In this document: positions 7,693 to 25,068 of the stretch, one piece after another
Position numbering within the stretch: position 1 is the first letter of the stretch
Layout: the number at the start of each line of letters is the position of its first letter
Source of the DNA: Bacillota bacterium
Lineage (GTDB): Bacteria; Bacillota; Clostridia; Clostridiales; Clostridiaceae
Length of the DNA: 33,424 nt
Assembly (NCBI GenBank): GCA_021781655.1
Contig: JAJXWJ010000037.1
Location: 1-33,424, forward strand
Reading direction: 5' to 3'
Made by a program: the position numbers and the translations under genes
The notes under the pieces: generated by a model
What the model saw: the letters and a program-made list of their open reading frames with translations, nothing else
Told to the model about the DNA's origin: nothing
The model's database searches: none

Positions 7693-8295
7693 TTAATTTT
7701 TATATATTGTAACTTGATAATCACCTTTAGCAATTGGTTTGCTTTTATAATTTATATTTAAGTCATCAAACCAAGGTGGAACATGTCCACAAATTACTTT
7801 TAGTTCATTAAAATTTTTGTTCTCTAAAAACGGCAACAATACCTTTTTAGTAGTTAAGTTTTTATATTCTAAAAGAACCGCCTTTAAATCTATATGAAAC
7901 TTTCCCTCTTCATTTGATTCAATAGGTTCTGGTAAAATAGTTGGAACTTTTTTCATTGTTTCTTTTTTAACATGTAATTCCTTTTCTGAAATATAATCAA
8001 GAAAATCTTCTGGCCTTCCTTTTACTTTCCATATTTTAAATAGCATTCCTTCTAAAATAGTAAATGAAATTCCTTTTATATTCTCTGCAACAAATATATT
8101 GCAATCCTCAAGAAGCAATATCATACTCTTAATTTCGTTTCTTATTGAAATTGAGTCCATTTCCTCATTGAGTTTTAAATCAATTTGTTTTACTACTATC
8201 CAATTATTATCTTCTTTATAATAAACTTTTACAATTCCATCATTACTTATTGGAATCGTTATGCCTTCTTTATTAACAAATACTGCAATTTTCAT
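7693..8295 (-). CDS. anfO: AnfO-family nitrogenase accessory protein
   Basis: This 200-aa protein is similar to AnfO, an accessory protein first named in the iron-only nitrogenase operon. Recognisable family features are the N-terminal MKIAVFVN strand and the central DCNIFVAENIKGISF segment. FKIWKVKGRPEDFLDYI follows, and the C-terminal VLLPFLENKNFNELKVICGH runs into VPPWFDDL. No signal peptide or membrane segment is seen. The biochemical role is not established; it is thought to support assembly or activity of alternative nitrogenase. AAAGGGTGAATTATA precedes the ATG, and the gene starts 14 nt after the ferredoxin gene. Its presence in a vnf rather than an anf operon is notable. Confidence 0.82.
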   Translation of the reverse strand: MKIAVFVNKEGITIPISNDGIVKVYYKEDNNWIVVKQIDLKLNEEMDSISIRNEIKSMILLLEDCNIFVAENIKGISFTILEGMLFKIWKVKGRPEDFLDYISEKELHVKKETMKKVPTILPEPIESNEEGKFHIDLKAVLLEYKNLTTKKVLLPFLENKNFNELKVICGHVPPWFDDLNINYKSKPIAKGDYQVTIYKN

Positions 8296-8309: not shown

Positions 8310-8633
8310 TCAATCAATTAATAAATACTTATCTACAACCTTCCCATACATAAAATGCGATTTAACTATCTCTTCTAAAGCTAACAAAGTAACTCCGCCA
8401 TACCAAGTTCCTTCAGGATATATAACCATATTTGGTCCTCTTTCACTAATGTGATTTCTAAAACAACCACAGCTGCTTATTAAAACATATTCCGAAAGAT
8501 TATTGCTAATTATAAGTTGTTCTAACTTATCAAAAATATTTTTACTACCTCTATTAGCGCATATTCCTTCTTTCTTACCATTGCATTTTGTTCCATCACA
8601 TATAAATACATGATATTTAGGTTTTATCATCAT
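8310..8633 (-). CDS. Thioredoxin-like [2Fe-2S] ferredoxin with altered ligands
   Basis: This 107-aa protein is related to the C. pasteurianum 2Fe ferredoxin, a thioredoxin-fold dimer known to interact with nitrogenase. Matching features are KYHVFICDGTKCNGK at the N-terminus, the conserved GP...VIYPEGTWYGGV segment and the EIVKSHFMYGKVV tail. Cysteines are C12, C17, C25, C55 and C57. C12 and C25 keep the 13-residue spacing of ligands 11 and 24 of the C. pasteurianum protein, and C57 matches ligand 56. The fourth ligand position (C60) has no cysteine: it is H61 or S63 depending on the gap, and an extra cysteine, C55, is nearby. The likely role is electron transfer or cluster handling for the V-nitrogenase. 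AAGGAG precedes the ATG. Confidence 0.85.
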   Translation of the reverse strand: MMIKPKYHVFICDGTKCNGKKEGICANRGSKNIFDKLEQLIISNNLSEYVLISSCGCFRNHISERGPNMVIYPEGTWYGGVTLLALEEIVKSHFMYGKVVDKYLLID

Positions 8634-8652: not shown

Positions 8653-9579
8653 TTAAGTTTCAGCTACAATTTTACCTAATCCTTTAATATTATATTCACT
8701 TAAGTTCTCTAGTTCTTTTTTGAATTGTTCAGAATTAATTATTTTGAGTACTTCTTGAAATTTAGGATTATCTATATCCTCCTTTTTAATTACAAGATCA
8801 AATTTTTCTATTTGAATCGGTATAAAGTCTACACCTTTTACTTCTCTTACGACTTTTTCATTGCTTACAGCAAAATCCCCTCCACCTCGTGCTACTGTGT
8901 TTACTACAAGTAAATCAGAAATACATTCTCTTTCATAACCACGTATTCTTTTAGAAGATATTTTAAACTTTTTTAAATATTCATCTAGAAATACTCTGCT
9001 ACTATTTCCTTTTTCTATATTAACAATTGAAATATCTTTTCGTTTCAAATCTCGCATACCTTTTATACCTTTAGGGTTTCCTTTAGCAACGCACAGCCCC
9101 TGCATTCTATCTGCCAAATGTATTACAACTGTCGGGATTCCTGGAAGCATTTTTTTAACATATGGCACATTATATTCTCCAGTTTCCGCATCCCACAAAT
9201 GAATTGCAGCCAACTGAACATTTCCTTTATACATATCGAATAGGGCAAAATAACTTCCTGTAAAGGATCTTAGTACTATATTATTATCTATCCTTCTTTG
9301 CAAATGGCATGAAAGTATATCTAAAATAAAATCTTCCCCACTTATTACAAATCCATACTTTCTTTTTAAGGCTTCAAGTTCACAAACTGAATCATTGCTT
9401 ATATTTATGCTCATTGTTCTACTTTTATATTCTTCAATGTCACTCTTATCTATTCTAACTTTATTACCTACTCTATAGGAAGCTATTTCCCCTTTTTTAG
9501 CCATTTCATATACAGTATATTTGGAAACTTTCAGTATTTCAGCAACTTCTTTTGGGGTTAACGCAGTTACCTCTTTCAT
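8653..9579 (-). CDS. HTH regulator with solute-binding-like sensor domain (operon-internal copy)
   Basis: This is a 308-aa one-component regulator. Residues 6-52 form an excisionase/MerR-like HTH (LTPKEVAEILKVSKYTVYEM...YRVGNKVRIDKSDIEEY). Residues about 80-305 form a cytosolic type 2 periplasmic-binding-protein-like domain (PBP_like), with GSYFALFDMYKG, H127-L-W-D130 and YNVPYVKKMLPG. Related domains bind oxyanions or small ligands, so sensing of molybdate or vanadate is an inference. Pocket segments that are conserved in the paralogue at 19724-20695 have changed here: NIEKGNSSR (187-195) and CISDLLVV. The start is ATG 9579, with AAGGAAGG 7 nt upstream; a TTG six codons earlier overlaps that site. 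It starts 26 nt after nifV-alpha, so it is probably expressed with the operon and could give feedback control. Confidence 0.8.
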   Translation of the reverse strand: MKEVTALTPKEVAEILKVSKYTVYEMAKKGEIASYRVGNKVRIDKSDIEEYKSRTMSINISNDSVCELEALKRKYGFVISGEDFILDILSCHLQRRIDNNIVLRSFTGSYFALFDMYKGNVQLAAIHLWDAETGEYNVPYVKKMLPGIPTVVIHLADRMQGLCVAKGNPKGIKGMRDLKRKDISIVNIEKGNSSRVFLDEYLKKFKISSKRIRGYERECISDLLVVNTVARGGGDFAVSNEKVVREVKGVDFIPIQIEKFDLVIKKEDIDNPKFQEVLKIINSEQFKKELENLSEYNIKGLGKIVAET

Positions 9580-9605
9580 ATTAAAACCTTCCTTCAAATT
9601 TTAGA

Positions 9606-10463
9606 TTATATACTTGATTTTTTATACATTGAACCAATTATAGGTTTATAGGGAAATACCTTTCTTCCGCTTGCCTCTTCTACTAGATCAGTTAATTTTT
9701 CAATTACTTCAAACCTTATACCACAATCATAGCCATACAAATGAAAAAGTGACTTTATTGTTTCTTCTAGCGACGCATTTCCAGCCCTTTCTCCTATTCC
9801 AACAGAAGTTACACTACAGAAGTTTACTTTAGCCTTAAATGCAGCTAAAGTATTGGCTGTAGCAAGACCAAAATCATTGTGTCCATGAAATTCTATTGGG
9901 AGAGGTGTTCGTTCCATTATATATTTCAATTTTTCGTATGTTAAAAACGGATCTAAACAACCAATGGTATCGGCATATCTTAGTCTTATAGCACCAAAGC
10001 TTGCAGCAACTTCGGCATATTGCAAAAAAAACTGTGGATCTGCTCTAGAAGCATCTTCTGCACCAACTATAATATCAACTCCATAACTTTTCATAAAACC
10101 AAGTATTTCTTTCAAACGATTAATTACCCAATTACGATTTTTCCTGAGTTTATAATTAATATGCAAATCAGACACTGGAAGAGATACATGTAAACATGAA
10201 AAGCCACAAGCTATAGATTGTTTAATATCTTCTTTAGATGCTCTGTTCCAGGCAATAAGATTTGCTTTAAGATTAAGCGATAGCATTTTTTTTAATGTGT
10301 ATTTTTCTTGTTCACCTATTGCAGGAATTCCAGCTTCTATCCACTTTATACCTGCTTCATCCATAGCTTTTAACATTCGTAGTTTTTCATCAGAAGAGAA
10401 TATTACTCCTGCCGTTTGTTCACCATCTCTTAGAGTTGTATCTATTATTTCAAATCTTTGCAT
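9606..10463 (-). CDS. nifV-alpha: Homocitrate synthase, alpha subunit
   Basis: This is the catalytic half of a two-gene homocitrate synthase (285 aa). NifV condenses acetyl-CoA with 2-oxoglutarate to homocitrate, the organic ligand of the nitrogenase cofactor. The TIM barrel has intact motifs: DTTLRDGEQTAGV (8-20) with the metal-binding Asp and catalytic Arg, and IEFHGHNDFGLATANT with the metal-binding His pair. SVGIGERAGNASLEE follows. The protein stops soon after (KPIIGSMYKKSSI), before the communication domain of one-piece NifV; that part is in the omega gene. The ATG overlaps the omega gene by 14 nt and has a weak ribosome site, suggesting translational coupling. The split arrangement is known from C. 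pasteurianum. Confidence 0.9.
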   Translation of the reverse strand: MQRFEIIDTTLRDGEQTAGVIFSSDEKLRMLKAMDEAGIKWIEAGIPAIGEQEKYTLKKMLSLNLKANLIAWNRASKEDIKQSIACGFSCLHVSLPVSDLHINYKLRKNRNWVINRLKEILGFMKSYGVDIIVGAEDASRADPQFFLQYAEVAASFGAIRLRYADTIGCLDPFLTYEKLKYIMERTPLPIEFHGHNDFGLATANTLAAFKAKVNFCSVTSVGIGERAGNASLEETIKSLFHLYGYDCGIRFEVIEKLTDLVEEASGRKVFPYKPIIGSMYKKSSI

Positions 10464-11538
10464 TTATTTCATTACCAACCCTTCTTATAATCTTTTCACA
10501 GTAAATCATTTTAAGCTGCTCATCTGATAAGGAGCTTTTTTGCAAAACAGCAAGTTTCTTGACCTCTTTCAGTATTTCTGACGCTTGATATTTATTTATT
10601 TCCATATCAAATTCGCTGAATTTTTTCTTTATTGCTGCAGTTCCTGAATGTTTTCCTATGATAAGCCTTCTCTTAAGCCCAACTTCTTCTGGACTAATAA
10701 CTTCATATAATGCTGGATTTTTTATAACTCCATCTACATGAATTCCAGATTCGTGTGCAAAAACATGACTGCCAATTACAGCTTTATCAATAGGTATATT
10801 TATATTCATTTTTTTCATAATTTCTTTACAATCTTCTGATATCGAATTGCATATATTACTATTGTTTTTATTAAAGAAATATTTGTCTGCCAATAATACC
10901 TCTTCCATTGAAGCTCCATTATTTATTCCGACTCCACATATAGATGTATATATTTTTTTTACACCTGCCCTAATAGCAGATAAGCTATTTGCCGTAGCTA
11001 GACCTAAGCTATTATTTCCCTTATACTCAATTTTATAAAACATTGATTCACTTATTTTTTTTAAACTTTCAAAGGTCGTAAATGGATCTAATATGCACTT
11101 TTTATCATTATATATTATTGCGTTTACCCTATTTCTTTTTAATAATTTAAAACATGGTTTCAAGTCTTCTTGTGTATACTCCGATGCATTTTCTATACTT
11201 ACATAAATTTCTTGTACAAAAGTTCTAGTGAAACCCAATAGCCTGCTCAGTTCATTTAAAAATAATACTTCCTTTTTATAATTTATACATAATACTAATT
11301 TTTTAACTTTAATTCTTTTAGCTTTTTTTAATTGTCCAAAGTTATTATATACTTTGCATCTTATGAGGTGCAGAAAAGACGGATTGTTTAATTTGCAAAA
11401 ATTATCAAAAGATATTTCAATTGCTTCCAATGGATATTTTTTTAGTTTTAAGACAATTTTCTCAATTTCTTCATTGCTTAATCCAATGTTAATTGCTTCA
11501 TTAACTGTTTGATCTATTATTTTTATGCATTCTTCCAT
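10450..11538 (-). CDS. nifV-omega: Homocitrate synthase, omega subunit
   Basis: This is the partner of the alpha subunit (362 aa). The N-terminal two thirds keep the outline of the TIM barrel, but catalytic motifs are degraded. The position of DTTLRDGEQ reads DQTVNEAIN, and that of HGHND reads KGNNS within YKGNNSLGLATANSLSAIRAG. The C-terminal part is well preserved: AVIGSHVFAHESGIHVDG, then LKRRLIIGKHSG, which is the subdomain and communication region missing from alpha. The two therefore look like complementary halves of one enzyme. AGGTGG precedes the ATG. The gene starts 21 nt after vnfN and overlaps alpha by 14 nt. The reading frame is intact, so it is a functional split and not a decaying copy. 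Confidence 0.88.
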   Translation of the reverse strand: MEECIKIIDQTVNEAINIGLSNEEIEKIVLKLKKYPLEAIEISFDNFCKLNNPSFLHLIRCKVYNNFGQLKKAKRIKVKKLVLCINYKKEVLFLNELSRLLGFTRTFVQEIYVSIENASEYTQEDLKPCFKLLKRNRVNAIIYNDKKCILDPFTTFESLKKISESMFYKIEYKGNNSLGLATANSLSAIRAGVKKIYTSICGVGINNGASMEEVLLADKYFFNKNNSNICNSISEDCKEIMKKMNINIPIDKAVIGSHVFAHESGIHVDGVIKNPALYEVISPEEVGLKRRLIIGKHSGTAAIKKKFSEFDMEINKYQASEILKEVKKLAVLQKSSLSDEQLKMIYCEKIIRRVGNEINAKI

Positions 11539-11559: not shown

Positions 11560-12900
11560 CTACATTTTTAGTTCCAAATTCATTTTTTTTGAGCGAAATG
11601 CCTTTTCCCAGTCAGTTGCAAATATTTCTAGTAAATTTAGCATACCATTGTAACCAAAATATTGTTTATCCAAATATGTTTCTCTATTTGTTGGAGATAA
11701 AACATCAAAAGATATTTTAATTTTAAGCTCTTCTGCAATATACTTTTCCCAGGCGGAACCTATTAAGACATCTACATCTACATCTGATAAATCTTTTTTT
11801 ATTTGATATCCATCTATATCAAAAACAACCTTTGGGGAAATCTCCATTTCTAAAAGTTCTTTTGCTAAAAGTTCTTTTGCTTCTTTTGCATCACTTTTAA
11901 AGAGTAAAAGTTCAGGTATCATTTCCAATTCTTCAAAAAGCATTCTTAGCATTCCTATCCCAATAGTTGCATCAGAGGATAATGCTATTTGACAATTTCT
12001 GTATCTCGGAATAATCATTAACGCTCTTTTTCTAAGTATGCTTATAACCTCTTCTTCACCATATTTTATGAGTTTTTCTGCCATTTCTTCTGCTCCAAAA
12101 TATGATCCTAATGCTCTTATCCATCTATTTGTATTTTGTATTCCAATTGGCATAGGTATATTTGATAATATTAATGGAATTCCATGTATATCTTCCATTC
12201 GCTTTGCAAAAGCATACCCTGCGTCGTTACTTAATAAAATATTAGCTGTTGCAGTACCTGCTGATTCTATGTCAATAAATGAAGTATTATGAGAAAATAC
12301 AGTTTGAACTGCAACACCTAGTTTATCTAATACATTTTCAACCCATTTTAAATCTGACCACCAAGTTGGATTCAAATTTGCCTGTGGGGCAATAATATTA
12401 ACTGTATTACTTTTTTTTAAAGGTGTTTTCTTTATAAAAGGAAATAATGCATTAAGACCTAAATCTATCCCTGAATAACTATTGCCTCTAAAACCACCAG
12501 CTAATATTGGAATTAGCTTGGATGCAACCCTTGGCTGCATTTCTTTGCATATAGCCTCAATGTCTTCGCCAATTATATCTGCCGAACAAGTACCGACTAC
12601 GAAAGTTACATTTGTATTAAAAGTCTTGTCTGCTTCTAATATCATTTCATTTAACTTTTTTGTAGCACCCAAAATAATATCAGCTTCAAATAATCTTGTA
12701 CATCCAATTTTTCTTTTAGTAAAATCTATTTCATGGGCATCATAAGATGCTCTTACCGTTGATGCACAGCCTTGAGGGGAATGAATAATTATACTAACAT
12801 CCTTTATTCCAGCAACAACGCTTGCTACTCCCTCGAGAGCACAACCTAAAATAGGATCTTTACTGTATTGATCGCTTTCTAGCTCTAGCTGTTTATGCAT
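11560..12900 (-). CDS. vnfN: Nitrogenase cofactor scaffold subunit VnfN
   Basis: VnfN is the beta-like subunit of the VnfEN scaffold, on which the NifB-derived cluster is matured toward FeV cofactor. The 446-aa protein belongs to the nitrogenase component 1 family. Cluster-region cysteines are visible at GCALEG (C20), SPQGCAST (C45), KIGCTRLF (C67) and GTCSADIIGED (C105). Later family patterns include GIPLILSNIPMPIGIQNTNRW and the C-terminal YFGYNGMLNLLE. The start is ATG 12900 (MHKQLELES), with AGGAGG 7-8 nt upstream; an earlier in-frame start at 12933 would lie deep in vnfE. The gene overlaps vnfE by 16 nt. It could be labelled NifN from sequence alone; the operon context favours VnfN. Confidence 0.85.
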   Translation of the reverse strand: MHKQLELESDQYSKDPILGCALEGVASVVAGIKDVSIIIHSPQGCASTVRASYDAHEIDFTKRKIGCTRLFEADIILGATKKLNEMILEADKTFNTNVTFVVGTCSADIIGEDIEAICKEMQPRVASKLIPILAGGFRGNSYSGIDLGLNALFPFIKKTPLKKSNTVNIIAPQANLNPTWWSDLKWVENVLDKLGVAVQTVFSHNTSFIDIESAGTATANILLSNDAGYAFAKRMEDIHGIPLILSNIPMPIGIQNTNRWIRALGSYFGAEEMAEKLIKYGEEEVISILRKRALMIIPRYRNCQIALSSDATIGIGMLRMLFEELEMIPELLLFKSDAKEAKELLAKELLEMEISPKVVFDIDGYQIKKDLSDVDVDVLIGSAWEKYIAEELKIKISFDVLSPTNRETYLDKQYFGYNGMLNLLEIFATDWEKAFRSKKMNLELKM

Positions 12901-14411
12901 CTTCCACTCCTCCTCTTTGAATACATTGTGCAATCTGGAACATCTTGACTTAATTTATCAGTTAGTGAGCTAACTGATGTAATACCTGAAGCTTTATCTG
13001 GAAATATCATTTTCTTAGATAAGGAACTTCTTGGTCTAAATGAGTATTCTATAGCTTTATTTATTGCTTTTGCAACCTTAAGTGCTCCTCTATATCCAAA
13101 CCTTGGCCTGTTTAAAATTGCATTCAAATCTACTAACGGAATACTTGGGAAACTTAACGACGAACCAAAATAAATTACCGATTTTGAATCCATTGCCCCA
13201 AGAAACGCAAGTAATTCTTCTTCCGTCTGTTGCATAGATTCATACTTTCCAAAAGAAAGAGTTCCTTTTGTAATTAATATCTCAGGATCAATTCCCGCAA
13301 GTAATAAATAATCTATACTTGTTTCTCTAGCTCCTGTATTCCATGGGTGAAAGTTATATATTATTGGACGCATTCCGAAATCCTTTTCCAACATATAAGC
13401 TATAGATAAGCTTTTTACTGCATCATGTCCTTCGATTATTGCAACTTTATTAATAAGATTTTCTTTTGCTTTTTCAAATTCTTCTTTTATTTCATTGTAC
13501 TCTTTTTCCATAAACTCTTTTGTTTCTTTTTCCATATCTAAATACTTTGCTGCCCCCAAAAGCCATTTTTCTGTTGCACTTATGCCATATGGAAGTATAG
13601 TTGAGTTTAAAGGTGTTCCATATACATTTAACATTTCTTTTCCAACTACATAACCTATATCCATACATAATGTGCAATTTACTGCCACACTTGGTGCTTT
13701 TTTTAGTTGTTCTAGTGAACAATTTCCTGCAATCACAGAATTAATTTTTGCTCCCATTCCTTCAAGCATTCTAATAAGTTCTTTAACATCTGTATCTACT
13801 TCTGTTCTCTCTGGACCCATCTTTCCGCCAACAATATTTACATACTTAGCTAACTTTTTTTTGCTAGCTTCAGTAGGTGCCTCCATTAAATTGACAATTT
13901 CTTTAAATACTAAATCAAACCCTGTTCTATATTCTCCTGAAAAGCCCTCGCAATGAATAGTCATTAATTCAGCGTTAATATTCTTTTTTACTTTATCAAC
14001 AATTGAATCCACATTATCTCCAATTATACCTGTTGCACAACTTGTTGCTACTACTATTAAATCTGGCTTATATTTTTTATAAACTTCTAAAATAGCACCC
14101 CTTAACTCTTTTTCTCCTCCATAAACAATATTTTTTTCTCCAATATTTGTTGTTAGTACCGATTCATAAGGGGAGCCGCTATTACGACAATTTGTAAGTT
14201 TATAAGCATTTTTCACACCATAAGCACAGCCACTTGGTCCATGAGCAATAACTATTGCATTCTTTATTCCACTCAATATCTTCATAGCGGTCCAAAACTT
14301 ACAAGGTCTTGTATGACTCCCTTGAAGATTTGTTTTAATTTTACCTTCCTTGGTTAATTTATACAGTTCACTTAATTTTCCAGAAAATACTATACTTCCA
14401 TGAATGTCCAC
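12885..14411 (-). CDS. vnfE: Nitrogenase cofactor scaffold subunit VnfE
   Basis: VnfE is the alpha-like scaffold subunit that pairs with VnfN in cofactor assembly. The protein has 508 aa, somewhat long for the family. Conserved features are RPCKFWTAMKILSGI (C37), HGPSGCAYG (C62), TSCATGIIGDNVDSIV (C124) and CEGFSGEYRTGFD. GNCSLEQLKKAPSVAVNC and NRPRFGYRGALKVAKAI also match. After the usual end there is a polar tail of about 50 residues ending CTMYSKRRSGRC-INS, whose codons also carry the vnfN ribosome site. The start appears to be GTG (14409-14411), with AGGAGG about 10 nt upstream. It begins 67 nt after the ZIP transporter gene. Confidence 0.87.
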   Translation of the reverse strand: MDIHGSIVFSGKLSELYKLTKEGKIKTNLQGSHTRPCKFWTAMKILSGIKNAIVIAHGPSGCAYGVKNAYKLTNCRNSGSPYESVLTTNIGEKNIVYGGEKELRGAILEVYKKYKPDLIVVATSCATGIIGDNVDSIVDKVKKNINAELMTIHCEGFSGEYRTGFDLVFKEIVNLMEAPTEASKKKLAKYVNIVGGKMGPERTEVDTDVKELIRMLEGMGAKINSVIAGNCSLEQLKKAPSVAVNCTLCMDIGYVVGKEMLNVYGTPLNSTILPYGISATEKWLLGAAKYLDMEKETKEFMEKEYNEIKEEFEKAKENLINKVAIIEGHDAVKSLSIAYMLEKDFGMRPIIYNFHPWNTGARETSIDYLLLAGIDPEILITKGTLSFGKYESMQQTEEELLAFLGAMDSKSVIYFGSSLSFPSIPLVDLNAILNRPRFGYRGALKVAKAINKAIEYSFRPRSSLSKKMIFPDKASGITSVSSLTDKLSQDVPDCTMYSKRRSGRCINS

Positions 14412-14478
14412 TTAATTTACACCTCCTAAAATAAAATGTTAGATAAGAAGTAAAAGTTAAAACTTTTTTATTACCAAC

Positions 14479-15126
14479 TTAGCATAATAAGCAAGATACT
14501 GTACCTATTACCGCTCCAACTATTGCTATAGTTGCAATCTTAGATTTTATATTTACATCTTCTTTAATATTATCTGCTACAATTTTAAGTATTGAAGCAG
14601 AGACAACATATAAAATTACCCCAGCAACGAATGCACCAATTGGCTGTGCAATATATTCTGGTGTTGGGACTAAGGCACCTAGTGGAATTAATAAAGAAAT
14701 TAAGGCTGATATAGTAAATCTAGTTCTATCTTTCTTACCATCGAGAAGCGAAAATGTAACCATCCCTTCTGGCACTTTGTGAAGAACTAATCCAACTAAC
14801 ATTAACGGATTAACCGCCATAGCAGTTAAAACAATCCCTTCACAGAAATTATGAAACCCCATACCTGCAACTGCTGAATATTTTCCTGCAAAATTTCCCA
14901 ATTTATTAATTGCAAACATTGTTGCAATACCAAAGACAACAACTACGTATGCATACTTAAAATCCTTAGACGAATCCGGAATTATATCTGCAATTGCAAT
15001 TGCAAAAGCAAAGCCTAATCCTAAACAGGATAAAAACATTCTCTTTTTACTTTCTTTTGTTACTATAAATAATGTAGCTCCCAATAATTCTGCACATACA
15101 AACAATACTGTTGCAATTAAATTCAT
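14479..15126 (-). CDS. ZIP-family divalent metal transporter within the vnf operon
   Basis: This is an integral membrane protein of 215 aa with about seven to eight hydrophobic segments, in the ZIP (GufA/ZupT-like) family that imports Zn, Fe or Mn ions. Two signature helices are present: GMGFHNFCEGIVLTAMAV and LHKVPEGMVTFSLL. The first carries Cys in place of the usual Pro of HNxPEG, and the second has Lys after the His. By comparison with the BbZIP binuclear site, the M1 residues (His, His, Glu) are kept while one M2 position is Lys. The start is ATG 15126, with AGGAGG 7 nt upstream; an upstream in-frame ATG at 15153 overlaps vnfK and lacks a site. It lies 16 nt after vnfK and so is likely co-expressed with nitrogenase. 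The substrate is unknown; Fe(II) or an oxovanadium cation is conjecture. Confidence 0.85.
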   Translation of the reverse strand: MNLIATVLFVCAELLGATLFIVTKESKKRMFLSCLGLGFAFAIAIADIIPDSSKDFKYAYVVVVFGIATMFAINKLGNFAGKYSAVAGMGFHNFCEGIVLTAMAVNPLMLVGLVLHKVPEGMVTFSLLDGKKDRTRFTISALISLLIPLGALVPTPEYIAQPIGAFVAGVILYVVSASILKIVADNIKEDVNIKSKIATIAIVGAVIGTVSCLLC

Positions 15127-15142
15127 ATCGATTCCTCCTATT

Positions 15143-16528
15143 TTACCAAACATTTAATATATATTCTTTATTTTTTGTGTATTCCATATGAGTAAATAAT
15201 GCATTTGCAATTGTATTTGCAAGTTGCTCTGCTCCTCTATAACCTATCAATGGCTGTTTCCATAAACCTGCTCTATCAAATGTTGGAAATCCAACCCTAA
15301 CCATTGGTATTTTATTATCTATTGCAATAAACCTTCCTTTTGAATGTCCGAGTATTAAATCAACTTCAACTTCTTTGTTTTCAATTTTGCTTTGAAGTTC
15401 AAATAAATCTGCATTCGTTATTACTTCTAAATCATAATCAATTTGTTCTTCAATAGTTTTAAATCTGATATCTTTTTTATAAGCCTTATTATCATCTCCT
15501 AATAAAAGAAGTACTGGTTTTAACGAAACATCTATGCAAAACTGAGCTAAACCTATTACTAAATCTGGATCTCCATAAATTGCGACTTTCTTATCTGCAA
15601 AAAACATATGTCCTAAATCCGCAATCGCATCGATTGCTTTACCACGTTCAATAATCAAAGAATTTGGTATTTCTTTTCCTGTAAGCTTTTTAATGTTTTT
15701 TAAAAAAGCATCTGTATTTTTAATTCCAACCGGCATATCACCAATTATAGTAGGAATATCAAATTCTGTTTCTAAAAACTGAGCAGCTTTCCCACCTTCA
15801 TATTTACATAATGCTATGGTTCCTAAAGCATTTGCACTATCTTCGATATCTTCTATTGTTGTATTCCCATATGCAAATGCAGATTTATCAGGCATAGTTG
15901 GTGCATCAAAAGTTTCTGTATCAAGTAAAACATTCCCTTCAACCTTCATTTCACTTAACAAATGCTTTATCTCTGTTACATCTCCTGGATTTACCCATCC
16001 AGTTATAATATTTAACTTTCCATTTGGTTTACTTTGTTTTGCTAATTCACTAATAAAGGTTTCTAAAGCCACATCATATCCACTAACCTGACTACCCGTA
16101 TAACTAGGAGTGTGTAAAGGTATCAGCTTAACCTTTTTATCTGGATATTTTTCTTTAAGCTCTTTATTTAACTTATTAACAGTACCCTCAATGTCATCAC
16201 CTATTGTTTCTGTTGAACATGTGGTTATTATTGGTATAATCCTAACTTCTGGATATCTTTGAATTAAAGTTCTTACTCCATCTAATATTCTGTCAATTCC
16301 TCCGAAAACTGCTTCATCTTCATGTAGTGAAGATGAAGCTATGTCAAAATTTTCTTTAAAGTGTTGTGCAAATACTAATCTAACAAATGTACAACAACCT
16401 TGTCCTCCGTGAACAAGTGGAATACACTCCTTTATAGCTATTGCAGCAAATTGACCCCCAGCAGGTTGGCAGTCAAAAATTGGATTTATTACATTCAGCC
16501 TCTCTTTTTGTTTTATTTCAACCGACAT
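15143..16528 (-). CDS. vnfK: Vanadium nitrogenase beta subunit VnfK
   Basis: VnfK is the beta subunit of the VFe protein and shares the P-cluster with VnfD. It has 461 aa, or 462 from the preceding ATG. P-cluster cysteines lie in IFDCQPAGGQFA (C20), HGGQGCCTFVRLVFAQHFKE (C45, followed by a second Cys) and TTCSTETIGDDIEG (C104). Strong VnfK signatures include STSLHE-like SSSLHEDEAVFGG, GWVNPGDV, LGHSKGRFIAI and MVRVGFPTFDRAGL. The final HMEYTKNKEYILNVW closely matches the Azotobacter C-terminus. Two ATGs are adjacent (16531, 16528); GAGGTG sits only 2 nt from the first and 5 nt from the second, so the second is preferred. It is 42 nt downstream of vnfG. Confidence 0.95.
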   Translation of the reverse strand: MSVEIKQKERLNVINPIFDCQPAGGQFAAIAIKECIPLVHGGQGCCTFVRLVFAQHFKENFDIASSSLHEDEAVFGGIDRILDGVRTLIQRYPEVRIIPIITTCSTETIGDDIEGTVNKLNKELKEKYPDKKVKLIPLHTPSYTGSQVSGYDVALETFISELAKQSKPNGKLNIITGWVNPGDVTEIKHLLSEMKVEGNVLLDTETFDAPTMPDKSAFAYGNTTIEDIEDSANALGTIALCKYEGGKAAQFLETEFDIPTIIGDMPVGIKNTDAFLKNIKKLTGKEIPNSLIIERGKAIDAIADLGHMFFADKKVAIYGDPDLVIGLAQFCIDVSLKPVLLLLGDDNKAYKKDIRFKTIEEQIDYDLEVITNADLFELQSKIENKEVEVDLILGHSKGRFIAIDNKIPMVRVGFPTFDRAGLWKQPLIGYRGAEQLANTIANALFTHMEYTKNKEYILNVW

Positions 16529-16570
16529 CATATCACCTCTTCTTAGTTTTTACTTTTGAGTTCACTTCTT

Positions 16571-16909
16571 TTAATAAAAGTTCCATCTTATTTCTCCATT
16601 TAAGCATTTATCTATAAATACTCTAAATAATTCGTCTTTTGCCCCATCAAGTGCACTTGTTATTTCCTCATTTTTTGCTTCTTTAATCCATGCTATATGT
16701 TCTTTGAGCTGACTTACTAAAACCTTGGCATCAGCATAATATGCTTTTTCAAGAAGCGTATTATTAATTATTTCTTCATTAGTTAAAAGTGCCTTTACTC
16801 TATCCATAACGCCCTCTATATTATTCCTTCTATCCCATTCTCTCGAATGAGTTTGCCATAGGCATCGTTGCTGAATATAATCAAATATCTCTTTTGCCTT
16901 ATCTGTCAT
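16571..16909 (-). CDS. vnfG: Vanadium nitrogenase delta subunit VnfG
   Basis: VnfG is the small delta subunit (112 aa) found only in alternative nitrogenases, where it binds the alpha subunit near the cofactor. The family pattern is clear: IFDYIQQRCLWQTHSREWDR, then NIEGVMDRVKALLTNEE, and KAYYADAKVLVSQLKEH, with a helical C-terminal half. The length agrees with the family (about 110-115 aa). GGGAGG lies about 9 nt upstream of the ATG, within the end of vnfD, whose stop codon at 16911 nearly abuts the start. Its presence excludes a molybdenum nitrogenase identity for this operon. Confidence 0.95.
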   Translation of the reverse strand: MTDKAKEIFDYIQQRCLWQTHSREWDRRNNIEGVMDRVKALLTNEEIINNTLLEKAYYADAKVLVSQLKEHIAWIKEAKNEEITSALDGAKDELFRVFIDKCLNGEIRWNFY

Positions 16910-16910
16910 T

Positions 16911-18317
<1,407 letters not shown>

Positions 18318-18380
18318 CTATTTTTTATAATTTTTATTATAATAATTTGAATAATTTAGCCTAAAATGATATAATTAATT

Positions 18381-18434
18381 TGTAAATTTTTTTTACAAGG
18401 ATATATCTCATTTTTCGGATTTTGAGGTATATCC
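18381..18434. other. Tandem hairpins in the vnfH-vnfD spacer
   Basis: The 137-nt gap holds two inverted repeats: GGATATATCTCA/TGAGGTATATCC (18399-18410 and 18423-18434) and TGTAAA/TTTACA (18381-18397). On the transcribed minus strand no T-tract follows the hairpins, so they are not simple terminators. They may stabilise the 3' end of vnfH mRNA, or mark a processing or partial attenuation point giving more VnfH than VnfDGK. Confidence 0.5.
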
Positions 18435-18442
18435 GTTTTATT

Positions 18443-19288
<846 letters not shown>

Positions 19289-19386
19289 TTATTTATATAA
19301 AAAAAATGAATTTGTACTAATTTAATTCACTTTTTTTATCCAAGTAAATTTTTATGTCCTAAATATTTATTGTTTCTGTTATTTGT

Positions 19387-19415
19387 ATTATAGTATGAAT
19401 TTAATAATTATGCAA
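19387..19415 (-). promoter_or_regulatory. Sigma-A promoter of the vnf operon
   Basis: On the minus strand TTGCAT (19415-19410) and a perfect TATAAT (19392-19387) are separated by 17 bp. Transcription would begin near 19380, leaving a leader of about 115 nt before vnfH. Confidence 0.65.
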
Positions 19416-19432
19416 TGATTATTTTATTAATT

Positions 19433-19451
19433 CGTTATAATATAACGTTAT
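19433..19451. promoter_or_regulatory. CGTTAT/ATAACG operator candidate upstream of vnfH
   Basis: CGTTATA-A-TATAACG (19433-19447) is a perfect palindrome with 7-bp arms. It is followed by TTAT, which makes a third half-site CGTTAT (19446-19451) overlapping the second. It lies 18 bp upstream of the -35 box of the vnfH promoter, where an activator could sit. The half-site resembles those I recall for ModE operators, but that is memory and not a search. The HTH/solute-binding regulators are the natural candidates to bind it. Confidence 0.5.
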
Positions 19452-19649
19452 TTATTAATAAATATTCATTAAAAACGTATTTTTTTATAATATATGATTT
19501 CCGTTTTCAAATATGAATCATAATAAAACAATACTAAAATTGTTAAAAAGATTTTTTTTATATACCAATTCATACAATTTTATTTTGATATTTTTTTTTG
19601 ATTTTACCTACAATTATATTTTTTTATTCTATTGTTTTCATTCCAATTG

Positions 19650-19678
19650 TTGCTATTGATATTTTGATATAATATAAT
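19650..19678 (+). promoter_or_regulatory. Sigma-A promoter of the plus-strand regulator
   Basis: TTGCTA (19650-19655) and TATAAT (19673-19678) are separated by 17 bp, about 45 bp upstream of the regulator ATG at 19724. Confidence 0.55.
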
Positions 19679-19723
19679 AATAAAAATTATGGTTACATAA
19701 ATTTATTAAAAGGTAGTGATTAT

Positions 19724-20695
19724 ATGAATGGTAAAACATCGCTTTCCACACAAGAAGTAGCGGAAATCTTAGATATATCAAAAAATACTGTTTATGAATT
19801 AATAAAAAGAAAAGAACTTCCTTCTTATAGAGTTGGTAGAAAAATTAGAATAGATTATGATGATATTGAAAACTATAAAAATAAAAGCAGAACTAATTTA
19901 TGTGATACAAAAACTTCAATTATAAGTTCTAATTATGTTAATAAAGATAATACCTTAGCTAATTCTAATTCTGAATCAGGAAAAAATGATAAAAACATTA
20001 TTATTTGTGGCCAGGATTTAATTCTAGACATATTAACTAAATATTTAGAAAAGCATCCAAGTAAAATTCGTGCATTAAGAAGCTATATTGGTAGTTACAA
20101 TGGGCTTGTCGAATTATATAAAGGAACTGCAAATGTTACTTCTGTCCATCTATGGGATGGTGAGACAGGGATTTATAATATTCCTTATGTTCGCAGACTT
20201 CTCCCTGGATTTTCCTGCATCCTTGTCAACTTAGCATATAGAATGCAAGGATTTTATGTTTATAACGGCAATCCCAAAAATATTAACGATTGGTCTGATT
20301 TAACAAAATCAGATGTGGTGATGATCAATAGAGAACCTGGCTGTGGTGTTCGAGTGCTAATTGATGAGCACTTAAGAAAACTTGGTATATCTAGAAATTG
20401 TATCGCTGGCTATTATAGAGAAGAATATTCACATTTAGCAGTAGCTAGTGCTGTAGCACGAGGTGAAGCTGATGTTGCTGTTGGAAATGAAAAAACTGCT
20501 TTGCAAGTAAGTAATATCGATTTTATTCCTATTCAAAAAGAAAAATTAGATTTAGTAATAAGAAAAGAAGATCTTGAAAAGCCAGAATTTAAGGCAATTA
20601 TAGATATATTAAACTCAACTGAATTCCATAAGGAATTAGAAGGTATAAGCGGATACGATTTAAGCGAAACAGGTAAAATAATTTCCGAAACATAA
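19724..20695 (+). CDS. HTH regulator with solute-binding-like sensor domain (divergent copy)
   Basis: This is a 323-aa paralogue of the regulator at 8653-9579, transcribed away from vnfH. The HTH (about 7-52) reads LSTQEVAEILDISKNTVYEL...YRVGRKIRIDYDDIENY. A Ser/Asn-rich linker (about 55-88) follows, longer than in the paralogue. The sensor domain (about 90-320) has GSYNGLVELYKG, H142-L-W-D145, YNIPYVRRLLPG and NREPGCGVR (202-210). EEYSHLAVASAVARGEADVAVG (233 onward) is close to the family consensus for ligand contact. There is no signal peptide, so it senses in the cytosol. Its divergent position suggests it controls the vnf promoter. Molybdate, tungstate or vanadate as effector is inference. 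AAAAGG lies upstream of the ATG, and a bidirectional terminator follows. Confidence 0.82.
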   Translation: MNGKTSLSTQEVAEILDISKNTVYELIKRKELPSYRVGRKIRIDYDDIENYKNKSRTNLCDTKTSIISSNYVNKDNTLANSNSESGKNDKNIIICGQDLILDILTKYLEKHPSKIRALRSYIGSYNGLVELYKGTANVTSVHLWDGETGIYNIPYVRRLLPGFSCILVNLAYRMQGFYVYNGNPKNINDWSDLTKSDVVMINREPGCGVRVLIDEHLRKLGISRNCIAGYYREEYSHLAVASAVARGEADVAVGNEKTALQVSNIDFIPIQKEKLDLVIRKEDLEKPEFKAIIDILNSTEFHKELEGISGYDLSETGKIISET

Positions 20696-20714
20696 TTTTT
20701 AATATAAAAAACTA

Positions 20715-20751
20715 CGACTTACTGTTATTTTATTTATTAAACAGTAAGTCG
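20715..20751. terminator. Bidirectional terminator
   Basis: CGACTTACTGTT (20715-20726) and AACAGTAAGTCG (20740-20751) form a perfect 12-bp stem with a 13-nt loop. A run of six T follows on the minus strand, and a weaker T-rich stretch on the plus strand. It separates the convergent regulator and activase genes. Confidence 0.85.
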
Positions 20752-20769
20752 CTTTAATTATTTTTAAGT

Positions 20770-23700
20770 TTATTCAAGCACAGCATTTTGAGCTTCTTGT
20801 TTTTTATCTTCTACTTCTTCAGCAGTTTTTACAAATTGCTCTTTTTTATCTAAATTTTTAAACGCGGTAGAAAGCATAAGCTTAATTCTATTAAGCTGAT
20901 TTACTTCGCTAGCACCTGGATCATAATCAATGGCTGCTATATTTGCATAAGTATATCTTCTCTTTAATTCTTTAATCATTCCTTTACCGGTTACGTGGTT
21001 AGGAAGACAAGCAAAAGGCTGCATACAAACTATATTTTCTGCACCACCTTCTATAAGTTCTACCATTTCAGCAGTTAAAAACCATCCTTCACCAGTTTGA
21101 TTTCCAATAGATACAATATCATTTACTCCATTTGCAAGCTGATGAATAGTTTTTGGTGGTTCAAAGCGCTCACTTTTCTTTAAAGCTTTCTTCATTTCTT
21201 TTCTATAGAATTCCATAGCATTTATTAAAACGTTGCTTACTACTTTTGCTTTTCTTGTGCCAGCAAGATATTTATGCTTAAAGTTTGAATTATATGCACT
21301 ATAGAAAAGGAAATCCATTAAATCTGGCATAACAGCCTCAGCGCCTTCATTTTCTATAATATCTACAATATTATTGTTTGCTGTAGGATGGAACTTAACT
21401 AAAATTTCTCCCACAAGCCCAACCTTTGGCTTCTTAATATTGTTTATTGGCAAGGTATCAAAATCTCTAACTATTGACCATACATTCTTTTTAAACTCAT
21501 TAAGATTACCGCTTCTGCTAGACTTTTTGCATCTATCTACCCAAGATTCATAAAGTCTATTTGCAGCACCTGTTTCCTTTTCATATGGTCTTACCCTATA
21601 TAATACCCTCATCAACAAATCGCCATAAACAAGGGCTATGGCACATCTGTTTAACATAGGCAAAGAAATTTTAAAGCCAGGATTTGATTCTAAGCCTTGT
21701 GCACTTACTGCAATTACAGGAACATGTGAAAAACCTGCATCCTTCAAAGCTTTTCTAATAAATCCAATATAATTTGTTGCTCTGCAACCTCCACCAGTTT
21801 GTGAAATCATTACTGAAGTATTATCTAAATCATATTTACCAGATTTCAAAGCCTCTATCATTTGCCCAACAACTATAATAGATGGATAGCATGCATCATT
21901 ATTAACATATTTCAAGCCTTCCTCTACAGCATTTTTATCTACAGATGGGAGAACAACAATTTTGTAACCTGATTCTTCAATAGCTGCTTCTAAAAATTGA
22001 AAATGAATAGGTGACATCTGAGGGCAAAGAATAGTATGATTTTTTCTCATTTCTTCTGTAAATTGTTTTCTATTTTCAAGTTTAACTATCTTTTCCGGTT
22101 TTATTCCTATAGCATCTCTTTCTTCCATAGCAGCTTTTAATGATCTAACTCTAATCCTTATTGCACCTAAGTTGTTACCTTCATCTATTTTTATAGTAGT
22201 ATAAACTTTTTTGTTATTTTCAAGTATTTCCTGAACTTGATCTGTCGTTACTGCATCTAGTCCACAACCAAATGAATTAAGCTGAATGATTTCAAGGTTG
22301 TCCTCTTTTGCTACAAAGCTAGCAGCCGCATATAATCTTGAATGATAAACCCATTGGTCTACAACTCTAAGAGGTCTTTCAACAGTTCCAAGATGAGCTA
22401 CTGAATCTTCTGTTAATACAGCCATTTTAAAGCTAGTAATTAAATCTGGAATTCCATGATTAATTTCAGGATCGATATGATATGGTCTTCCGCTTAATAC
22501 TATACCTTTTATTCCAGTTTCCTTAATATATTCAAGTACCTCTTCACCTTTACTTCTTATATCATTTTTATATTTTGCTTCTTCAGCTTTAGCAAGATCT
22601 ACTGCATTATTAATTTCTCTTTTAGAAATATTAAAATGTATAAGTTCTTCATATAATCTATCCTTAAGTCTTTTAGGATCGTTTAAAGGTAAAAATGGAT
22701 TTTTGTATATTATATCCTTTGCTCTTAATTCATCCATATTATTTTTTAATACCTCTGGATAAGACGTAACAATAGGACAATTATAGTTATTTGTTGCCCC
22801 TTGTTGTTCTTTTGTTTCATATGGAATACAAGGATAAAAAATAAACTTTATTCCTTTATTAATTAAGCTTACTACATGTCCATGTGTTAGTTTGGCTGGG
22901 TAACAAGCTGATTCTGAAGGAATAGTTTCTATACCAAGCTCATAAATATCTTTAGTTGATCTCGGAGAAAGTTCAACTCTAAAGCCAAGGGTAGTAAAGA
23001 ATGTATGCCAAAAAGGATAATTCTCATAGATATTTAAAACCCTTGGAATACCAACAATCCCTCTTTTAGCTTCCTCTTTAGTCAAAGATTTATAATTAAA
23101 GGTTCTTTTATATTTATAATCATACAAGTTAGGTATTTCATTCTTTTTAATTGCGTGACCAGCACCTCTTTCACATCTGTTTCCAGTAATGTACTGTCTT
23201 CCATCTGAAAAGCCATTTACAGTAAGCATGCAATTATTATTGCAAAGTCCACATCTTCTCATATTTACTTCTACTCCAAAGCTATCTAGCTGATGGCTTT
23301 TTAAAAGAGTAGATTCATAAACTTCATCATATCTTTCCTTTGCTATAAGTGCTGCTCCAAATGCTCCCATAAGTCCTGCTATATCCGGTCTTATTACTTT
23401 TCTACCAGATATCATCTCAAAGCTTCTTAAAACTGCATCATTATAAAACGTTCCACCCTGTACAATTATGTTTTGTCCAAGTTCTTCTGGATTTCTTATT
23501 TTTATAACCTTATACAATGCATTTTTAACTACAGAATATGATAAACCAGCAGAAATATCTGCTACCTTAGCACCTTCCTTTTGTGCCTGCTTAACCTTTG
23601 AATTCATAAATACCGTACATCTTGAACCAAGATCTACTGGATTTACAGCATCTAGTGCTGCTACTGCAAAATCTTGTATATTCATTTGTAAGGATTTTGC

Positions 23701-25068
23701 AAAGGTTTCAAGAAAAGAACCACATCCAGCAGAACAAGCTTCATTTAAAAGTATACTGTTTATAACTCCATCTTTTATCCTTATGCACTTCATATCTTGT
23801 CCACCAATATCAAGAATAAAATCTACACCAGGAAGAAAGAAATCTGCTGCCTTATAATGTGCCACTGTTTCAACTTCACCTATATCAACCTTTAAGGCTG
23901 CTTTTATCAAACCTTCACCATATCCAGACACCGCAGAATTGGCGATTACAGCTTTCTTAGGTAAAACAGAATAAATATCCTTTAATATTTTGACTGCACT
24001 ATTTAACGGACTACCCGCATTACTTCCATAATAGGAATACAACAATTCACCGTCTTCTGAAACTAAAGCAGCTTTAGTAGTAGTGGAGCCTGCATCTATT
24101 CCTAAATAGCAATTTCCTTCATAACTAGCTAATTCTTTTTTCTTAACTTTATGAGCCGCATGTCTTTTATTGAACTCTTCAAACTCTTCTTTATCTTTAA
24201 AAAGTGGCTCTAAACTTAAAACTTCATGCATCGCATCATCTTTAAGCACAGACAATTTGTTTTTTAAGACATCAAATTGGATGCTCTTCTCATTTTTAGA
24301 TGTAAGAGCTGCACCAATAGCAACAAAAAGCTGAGAATTTTCAGGTATGATAATTTCATCTTCTGTAAGTTCTAAAGTTTCAATAAATCTTTTTCTAAGT
24401 TCAGGTAAGAAATATAATGGACCACCAAGAAAAGCTACCTTTCCTTTAATCGGTCTTCCGCAAGCAAGTCCACTTATAGTTTGATTTACAACTGCTTGAA
24501 AAATGGATGCTGCTATGTCTTCTTTTGCTGCACCTTCATTTAATAAAGGCTGCACATCTGTCTTAGCAAATACACCGCACCTAGCCGCTATTGGATAAAT
24601 ATTTTTATGTTTTTGTGCTAAACTGTTAAGTCCCATAGCATCTGTTTGTAAAAGTGTTGCCATTTGATCTATAAAAGCACCTGTTCCACCAGCACAGCTT
24701 CCATTCATTCTCTGGTCTATTCCACCTTTAAAATAGGTGATTTTAGCATCTTCTCCACCTAATTCAATAGCTACATCCGTTTCTTTTATAAACTTTTCTA
24801 TTGTATCTGTACAAGCTATTACTTCTTGAACAAAAGATATATTAAGCCACTTTGAAACAGACATTCCACCAGAACCAGTAACCATTACAGTAATCTCACT
24901 ATTTTTAAGTTTTTCATAAGCTTCATCTAGTAAGCTTACTATAGTTTTTTTAATATCTGAAAAATGTCTCTCATACTTACCATAAATAATATCATTGTTT
25001 TCATTTAAGACAACTAACTTTACTGTAGTAGATCCTACATCCAAGCCCAAATGTAATTTTTCTTTCAT
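20770..25068 (-). CDS. Large acyl-CoA dehydratase activase-type protein (double ASKHA domain plus DUF2229)
   Basis: This 1432-aa protein is built from two BcrAD/BadFG/HgdC-type ATPase domains followed by a DUF2229-like region. The first ATPase domain has [12 protein letters not shown] (7-18), with C125 in [11 protein letters not shown] and C164 in [10 protein letters not shown]. The second has [12 protein letters not shown] (322-333), with C445 in [11 protein letters not shown] and C484 in [13 protein letters not shown]2229 covers about 660-900, with [14 protein letters not shown]. The rest is a long C-terminal part with GGGCRATNY and conserved Cys. HgdC uses one such Cys pair per subunit to share a [4Fe-4S] cluster across a dimer, so this chain may hold the cluster as an internal pseudo-dimer. 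It would hydrolyse ATP to drive low-potential electron transfer, but the partner enzyme is not in the window. AGGAAGG precedes the ATG. Confidence 0.85.

Follow-up and report, generated by a model that had tools for sequence, protein, structure and literature searches.

What is a ZIP-family cation carrier doing inside a vanadium nitrogenase operon? The vanadium uptake route of most bacteria with V-nitrogenase is an open question, and passages of a 2014 review name VupABC of Anabaena as the only vanadate transporter characterised by then, with no similar genes in A. vinelandii, R. palustris or M. barkeri (PMC4284476). The window analysed here is the whole stretch of 33,424 nucleotides from a clostridial genome, G000, that is 97.7% complete. 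In it a ZIP gene lies between vnfK and a vnfE-like gene, and comparison with related genomes confirms that this placement is real. Like VupABC of Anabaena variabilis, which passages of the same review place in the vnf gene cluster (PMC4284476), the product would be a transporter encoded among nitrogenase genes; unlike VupABC, a TupA-like ABC importer of an oxyanion, it belongs to an unrelated family of cation carriers.

The ZIP reading frame runs on the minus strand from an ATG at 15126 to its stop at 14479 (Table 1). An alternative ATG at 15153 would give 224 residues and overlap vnfK, and the shorter form is favoured because AGGAGG stands directly 5′ of ATG 15126. The sequence-only reading had called the gene tightly packed in its operon, and so it is: 16 nt separate it from vnfK, whose stop codon ends at 15143, and 67 nt from the GTG (14411) of the vnfE-like gene. 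A simple scan found no promoter-like site on the minus strand from vnfK to the vnfE-like gene and a single weak terminator-like site within the ZIP frame (14803–14819), and neither class of site exceeded shuffled sequences in the same scan. ZIP is presumably cotranscribed with vnfHDGK. Two further genomes carry diverged orthologues (51–54% identity) at this junction, which rules out a chance insertion or a sequence error.

Table 1. Features of the vnf operon and its neighbours in the window, and importers near vnf genes in other loci
Feature	Position	Strand	Basis
AnfO-type accessory protein	7693..8295	-	TIGR02940, 136.2 bits, above cut-off 129.15
2Fe-2S ferredoxin	8310..8633	-	NF041612, 2e-27, under cut-off
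HTH plus PBP-like regulator	8653..9597	-	Pfam HTH_17 and PBP_like
Homocitrate synthase, N-terminal-type part (presumed alpha)	9606..10463	-	TIGR02660, profile 4-276
Homocitrate synthase, C-terminal-type part (presumed omega)	10450..11538	-	TIGR02660, profile 109-365
vnfN-like cofactor scaffold subunit	11560..12933	-	Oxidored_nitro; vnfE-vnfN order same in other vnf loci
vnfE-like cofactor scaffold subunit, GTG start	12885..14411	-	Oxidored_nitro; weak nifE match
ZIP-family transporter gene, 215 aa	14479..15126	-	ORF, Pfam Zip match, BbZIP alignment, orthologues in vnf loci
16-nt spacer with AGGAGG, vnfK stop to ZIP ATG	15127..15142	-	Sequence
vnfK, V-nitrogenase beta subunit	15143..16531	-	TIGR02932, 820.5 bits (cut-off 873.95), best match
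vnfG, delta subunit	16571..16909	-	TIGR02930, 116 bits (cut-off 141.7); Pfam AnfG_VnfG above its cut-off
vnfD, alpha subunit	16911..18305	-	TIGR01860, 895.8 bits, above cut-off 823.1
vnfH/nifH, Fe protein	18443..19282	-	TIGR01287, 467.2 bits, above cut-off
Divergent regulator upstream of vnfH	19724..20695	+	Excisionase-type HTH domain above cut-off and PBP-like part
Peripla_BP_2/FecCD-type importers near vnf	L043 15355-19575; L064 1749-7230; L042 12592-15616; L040 7031-8116; L051 12022-13104; L039 81-1908

Read along the minus strand, the operon comprises vnfH, vnfD, vnfG, vnfK, ZIP, the vnfE-like and vnfN-like genes, a homocitrate synthase in two parts, which we take to be omega and alpha, an HTH-PBP regulator, a 2Fe-2S ferredoxin and an AnfO-type gene. 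VnfG and VnfK score under their own cut-offs, yet Vnf models outscore Anf models for both. The vnfE and vnfN labels are looser, with weak nifE matches of 148 and 146 bits (cut-off 505); the vnfE-like product shares 69–78% identity across the 12 vnf loci other than that of genome G103. Two HTH-plus-PBP-like regulators lie in or beside the vnf operon, and a third is found near the nif cluster (L198 17242–18201). A second AnfO-type gene stands beside the nif cluster as well (L198 8043–8690), 39% identical to that of the vnf operon; despite the two AnfO-type genes, G000 has a single VnfG/AnfG match and therefore gives no sign of an Fe-only nitrogenase. A group II intron reverse transcriptase/maturase occupies 372–1619 of the window, close to the contig end.

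Profile and alignment evidence that is weak but consistent supports the earlier assignment to the ZIP family and suggests a divergent member. Pfam Zip (PF02535) matches with E = 4.9e-8 and 33 bits, slightly below the gathering cut-off of 35.1, and two orthologues score 32.0 and 32.1 bits against it; no NCBIfam model matches the window ZIP. A phmmer search of the PDB with the single sequence returned no match, and a profile of six ZIPs, half of them ordinary, matched BbZIP of Bordetella bronchiseptica (PDB 5tsa, 5tsb, 8czj, 6pgi), to which the window ZIP is 20% identical over 187 aligned positions. The hydropathy peaks, which were left uncounted, are compatible with eight transmembrane helices, and eight helices appear in a low-confidence AlphaFold model of three sequences (pLDDT 44, pTM 0.33). 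The HNxxEG and xxxPEG helices of BbZIP have their counterparts in HNFCEG (residues 92–97) and HKVPEG (residues 116–121).

Alignment with BbZIP separates the fates of the two metal sites in the way that the sequence-only reading had described, with M1 retained and a lysine at the M2 position. All four M1 ligand positions hold usable ligands, H92, E96, H116 and E120 standing for H177, E181, Q207 and E211, so that the histidine and both glutamates are kept and the glutamine has become histidine. M2 is lost, D208 being replaced by Lys117 and E240 by Ile147, with N178 kept as Asn93. Further differences are Cys95 for P180, Ser for E276 (Ala in the orthologues) and shorter loops: relative to other ZIPs, the protein lacks two residues close to BbZIP A95 and some of the helix 4–5 and helix 6–7 loops. 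The metal-site residues are invariant across the diverged orthologues, which conserve an H-N-F-C-E / H-K-x-P-E site. Among 27 inspected rows, from which L131 was left out as its chosen ORF lacks a ZIP motif, HNFCEG together with HK[VL]PEG occurs in the three vnf-linked rows. Cys at 180 and Lys at 208 are both absent from the 23 other ZIPs, a non-random set of mostly those most similar to the window ZIP in the order and class searches, two of them nearly identical, so within this similarity-picked set the substitutions were not common outside vnf loci. The sister group in the 27-row tree (support 98) consists of clostridial ZIPs with HS[LF][IL]DG / HEF[AT]EG motifs (L008, L119–L122, L124); these are of similar size but only 21–24% identical, with Ser/Asp in helix 4 and Glu rather than Lys at 208.

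Lysine at M2 is not unique to this protein. Human ZIP2 (SLC39A2), a eukaryotic ZIP that we liken to it through its published description alone, naturally has Lys-203 where the second metal ion of the binuclear site would sit; passages of that description predict single-site binding and present the protein as a divalent-metal carrier (PMC6527156). Several ordinary ZIPs in our comparison have Thr at the 240 position, and because M2 varies within the family in these ways, its loss is compatible with ZIP membership. In BbZIP, M1 binds Zn less tightly once D208K is introduced, at 35 versus 1.5 µM in the relevant passage of PMC11952358. The altered selectivity that had been read from the lysine does not follow, given the ZIP2 precedent and the effect of D208K; the residue points to a putative single-site transporter and by itself is no proof of new selectivity.

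Within the genomes searched, the subclade is restricted to vnf loci, as had been proposed from the window. Six proteins match at E ≤ 1e-5 among 225 genomes of the order: the window's own, those of G103 (100%), G067 (54%) and G075 (53%), and two generic ZIPs at 30–31%. The close orthologues (4 of 225 genomes) all lie between vnfK and vnfE and represent at most three lineages, counting the G103 copy once. A scan of 84,980 genomes, which detects close relatives only, yielded 23 stretches with the peptide pattern, three of them confirmed, namely G103, G075 and G067, all vnf loci. The class sample (391 genomes) gave 21 matches at E ≤ 1e-4, the best besides the window's own at 8e-12, and the phylum sample (398 genomes) two at 1e-9, the window's own and a weak one to a generic HSLLDG/HEFAEG ZIP in G920; neither sample held a close orthologue besides the window's own. 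Viral contigs gave 74 pattern matches and no confirmed relative, plasmids one match, a Natrinema ZIP at 23%, and PHROGs no relative.

VnfG/AnfG matches occur in 20 of the 225 order genomes. Classified by synteny and identity, 14 genomes have a vnf-type locus, with vnfEN-like genes and a VnfD 73–79% identical to the window's (99.8% in G103), and ten loci are anf-type, with a VnfD homologue 57–58% identical and no vnfEN; four of these ten are in genomes that also have vnf, and L048, the only one put to the AnfD model, passes it. ZIP is present in 4 of the 14 vnf genomes (3 of 13 without G103) and in none of the ten anf-type loci, a contrast too small to exclude chance and not statistically strong. 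Absence from ten of the 14 rules out a core vnf gene, and on this comparative evidence ZIP appears to be an accessory, laterally mobile one.

The G103 copy calls for separate treatment. Its contig (L063 1–13108, 13,108 bases, corresponding to window 11693–24800) is 99.9% identical to the window, and the other alignments between G000 and G103, among about 20 sampled contigs each, number five and reach only 66–81% identity. We sought rpoB for the same comparison and found it in neither genome. The tetranucleotide composition of the window is closer to G000 than to G103. Judged by its other contigs, G103 appears to be a different organism, and a stray contig has probably ended up in one of the two bins.

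The ZIP genes of G067 and G075 differ at 9% of synonymous sites, whereas vnfD, G, K, E and N differ at 31–51%; Fisher tests of ZIP against these five genes give p from 3e-8 to 3e-21, and dS is 0.10 versus 0.39–0.86. DNA identity is 95.3% for ZIP, 91.4% for vnfD, 89.8% for vnfK, 86.6% for vnfE and 81.8% for vnfN. G049 lacks ZIP and retains the upstream hairpin and the vnfE start, with vnfD, K, E and N 95–98% identical in DNA to those of G067. The synonymous contrast and the absence from G049 together indicate that the surrounding operon did not accompany ZIP when it moved or was exchanged. In a VnfD plus VnfK tree, G067, G049 and G075 form a clade with support 100; support is low for the groups that include G000, with 26, 70 and 79 at consecutive nodes, and the tree is compatible both with losses of an old gene and with repeated transfer. 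A VnfE plus VnfN tree was left out, its G103 row being wrongly assigned and very long.

The gene looks to be still under selection. By a simple Nei-Gojobori count its dN/dS is 0.36 (G067/G075) and 0.30 (G000/G067), its non-synonymous and synonymous fractions depart from neutral (Fisher p = 0.0095 and 1e-11, respectively), and none of the four copies has an interrupted frame. With 0.05–0.13 for the vnf genes, ZIP is the less constrained.

The vnfK/vnfE junction has features of its own. In nine ZIP-less vnf loci (L038–L040, L042–L045, L047, L051) the gap of 91–245 nt contains an inverted repeat, identified by eye and folded for G049, whose sequence varies between groups of vnf loci. G067 and G075 (L046, L050) have one inverted repeat between vnfK and ZIP and a second between ZIP and vnfE; the 16-nt gap of the window has none. 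The repeat may serve to stabilise the mRNA or act as an attenuator. In G117 a nifB gene (TIGR01290, above cut-off; L041 9917–11185) sits at the junction, which therefore accepts different genes.

Other vnf genomes offer a second candidate for metal uptake. In the 12 besides G000 and G103, a Peripla_BP_2/FecCD-type ABC importer lies near the vnf genes, with binding-protein matches 5–13 kb from vnfG in 11 of them and FecCD and ATPase genes on the vnf contig in G148. These importers are not one orthologous group: the binding proteins of G067, G049, G075, G117, G089 and G202 are 64–100% identical to the query, the vnf-near matches in the remaining genomes reach about 31–35%, and Pfam confirms parts of a FecCD-type system in G089, G148, G152, G165 and G166 only. 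The importer of these Clostridium relatives resembles the window ZIP as a vnf-linked candidate metal importer, here for vanadium or a metallophore, but belongs to an unrelated protein family and was not found in G000. In that genome two Peripla_BP_2 binding-protein queries gave no match, no FecCD permease scored above cut-off (one match was sub-threshold), and no TupA was seen, the sole PBP_like_2 gene being pstS, split over two contigs that overlap by 127 bases. At 97.7% completeness, the vanadium-importer gap in G000 looks real. In G166 and G049, TupA-like binding proteins that score under the family cut-off are encoded about 11 kb and about 19 kb from vnfG, respectively (L111 1402–2277, L112 1396–2277).

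The suggestion that ZIP fills the gap left by a missing vanadate ABC transporter survives in part. It suits G000, which lacks a FecCD-type importer and in which no TupA was seen. As a simple replacement of the ABC importer the idea is cut back by G067 and G075, which carry both, and ten of the 14 vnf genomes do without ZIP.

We consider it probable, at roughly 0.65, that ZIP imports some metal cation for V-nitrogenase. Some clostridia would have captured a shortened single-site ZIP importer into the vnf operon, where it would be made together with the nitrogenase. One metal cation would be bound at M1 by H92, E96, H116 and E120 and moved by an elevator-type passage, the amine of K117 presumably standing in place of a second metal. 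In the most speculative step, this cation would be vanadium in its vanadyl form, the one to expect where conditions are reducing, and the vnfEN-like products would receive it to assemble the FeV cofactor.

That the cargo is vanadium itself, as a V(IV) oxocation, is a tentative reading, though we rank it first among the candidates, leaning slightly to vanadyl over Fe(II), then an ordinary Zn/Mn carrier and finally a protein that has lost transport. Two considerations tip us towards vanadium: ZIP was seen to accompany vnf but neither anf nor nif, and a metal importer encoded next to a nitrogenase can supply its heterometal, as VupABC of Anabaena does in passages of PMC4284476. G000 supplies such a precedent in its Mo-nitrogenase cluster on contig C44, where NifD and NifK, both above their cut-offs, are followed by modA (above cut-off), a permease and an ABC ATPase (above no cut-off among the matches listed). 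The vnf-only orthologues, the invariant site, the dN/dS values and the absent FecCD and TupA count on the same side, as does the analogy of ascidian Nramp, presented in part of PMC11043195 as a divalent-cation carrier of V(IV). Against vanadium stand the vnf genomes without ZIP, G049 among them, the two with both importers, and the weakening of cation binding in BbZIP by a positive charge at M2 (passage in PMC11952358); the sub-cut-off Pfam score, the empty PDB phmmer search, the pLDDT of 44 and the constraint looser than that of the vnf genes also count against. A light search of the open-licence PMC literature found no report of a ZIP carrying vanadyl.

Less probable than vanadium is Fe(II), which ZIP would supply when the vnf operon is on, V-nitrogenase and its cofactor using much iron. 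ZIPs carry Fe(II), and the M1 site is intact. The M2 site of E. coli ZupT is reported as Fe(II)-preferring, as cited in a passage of PMC11952358, yet that preference is credited to the very site that the window ZIP has lost. Mo- and Fe-only nitrogenases need iron equally, yet ZIP is in none of the ten anf-type loci, a small number, and the nif cluster of G000 also lacks one.

We consider it unlikely that the operon carries a Zn/Mn-type ZIP of the ordinary kind as a hitchhiker, one without any particular tie to V-nitrogenase. Movement independent of the flanks would suit it, as would a junction that takes other genes and a lysine shared with the divalent-metal carrier ZIP2 (passages of PMC6527156), but a hitchhiker would be expected elsewhere too, whereas the close orthologues, of two sequence types about 52% identical, were found at the vnfK/vnfE junction only, and G000 already has a standard ZIP (HNFPEG/HDIPEG) on contig C75. 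Least likely is a ZIP-derived non-transporter, either a gene in decay or a membrane protein that senses metal or works with the HTH-PBP regulators of the operon: the long branch in the ZIP tree, the lost E240 and E276 equivalents, the shortened loops and a dN/dS above that of the five vnf genes fit it, but M1 ligands kept in two diverged types, open frames and a dN/dS well below 1 speak against it.

Vanadium import could be taken further: the single-site ZIP would be the first importer of vanadium cations dedicated to V-nitrogenase, used instead of or beside ABC uptake in strict anaerobes that meet V(IV), with the lysine hydrogen-bonding the oxo group of vanadyl (VO2+). We hold this fuller version to be rather improbable, and the hold of Lys117 on the oxo group is speculation. 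In the open-licence PMC literature, judged by titles and abstract openings, we found no ZIP in a vnf cluster and no joint treatment of vanadium nitrogenase, ZIP transporters and Clostridium. In the passages seen of one vnf paper 'zip' means leucine-zipper controls only (PMC9542535), and the text of an alternative-nitrogenase survey contains neither 'zip' nor 'transporter' (PMC5328986).

Our best guess is a known transporter family in an unusual and functionally suggestive place, a putative cation importer dedicated to vnf. For vanadium uptake in V-nitrogenase bacteria, the vnf ZIP offers a small single-gene candidate, and the genome comparison yields a second in the FecCD-type ABC importers. 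If the proposed role is true, ZIP may be how a few clostridia obtain metal for V-nitrogenase, possibly vanadium.
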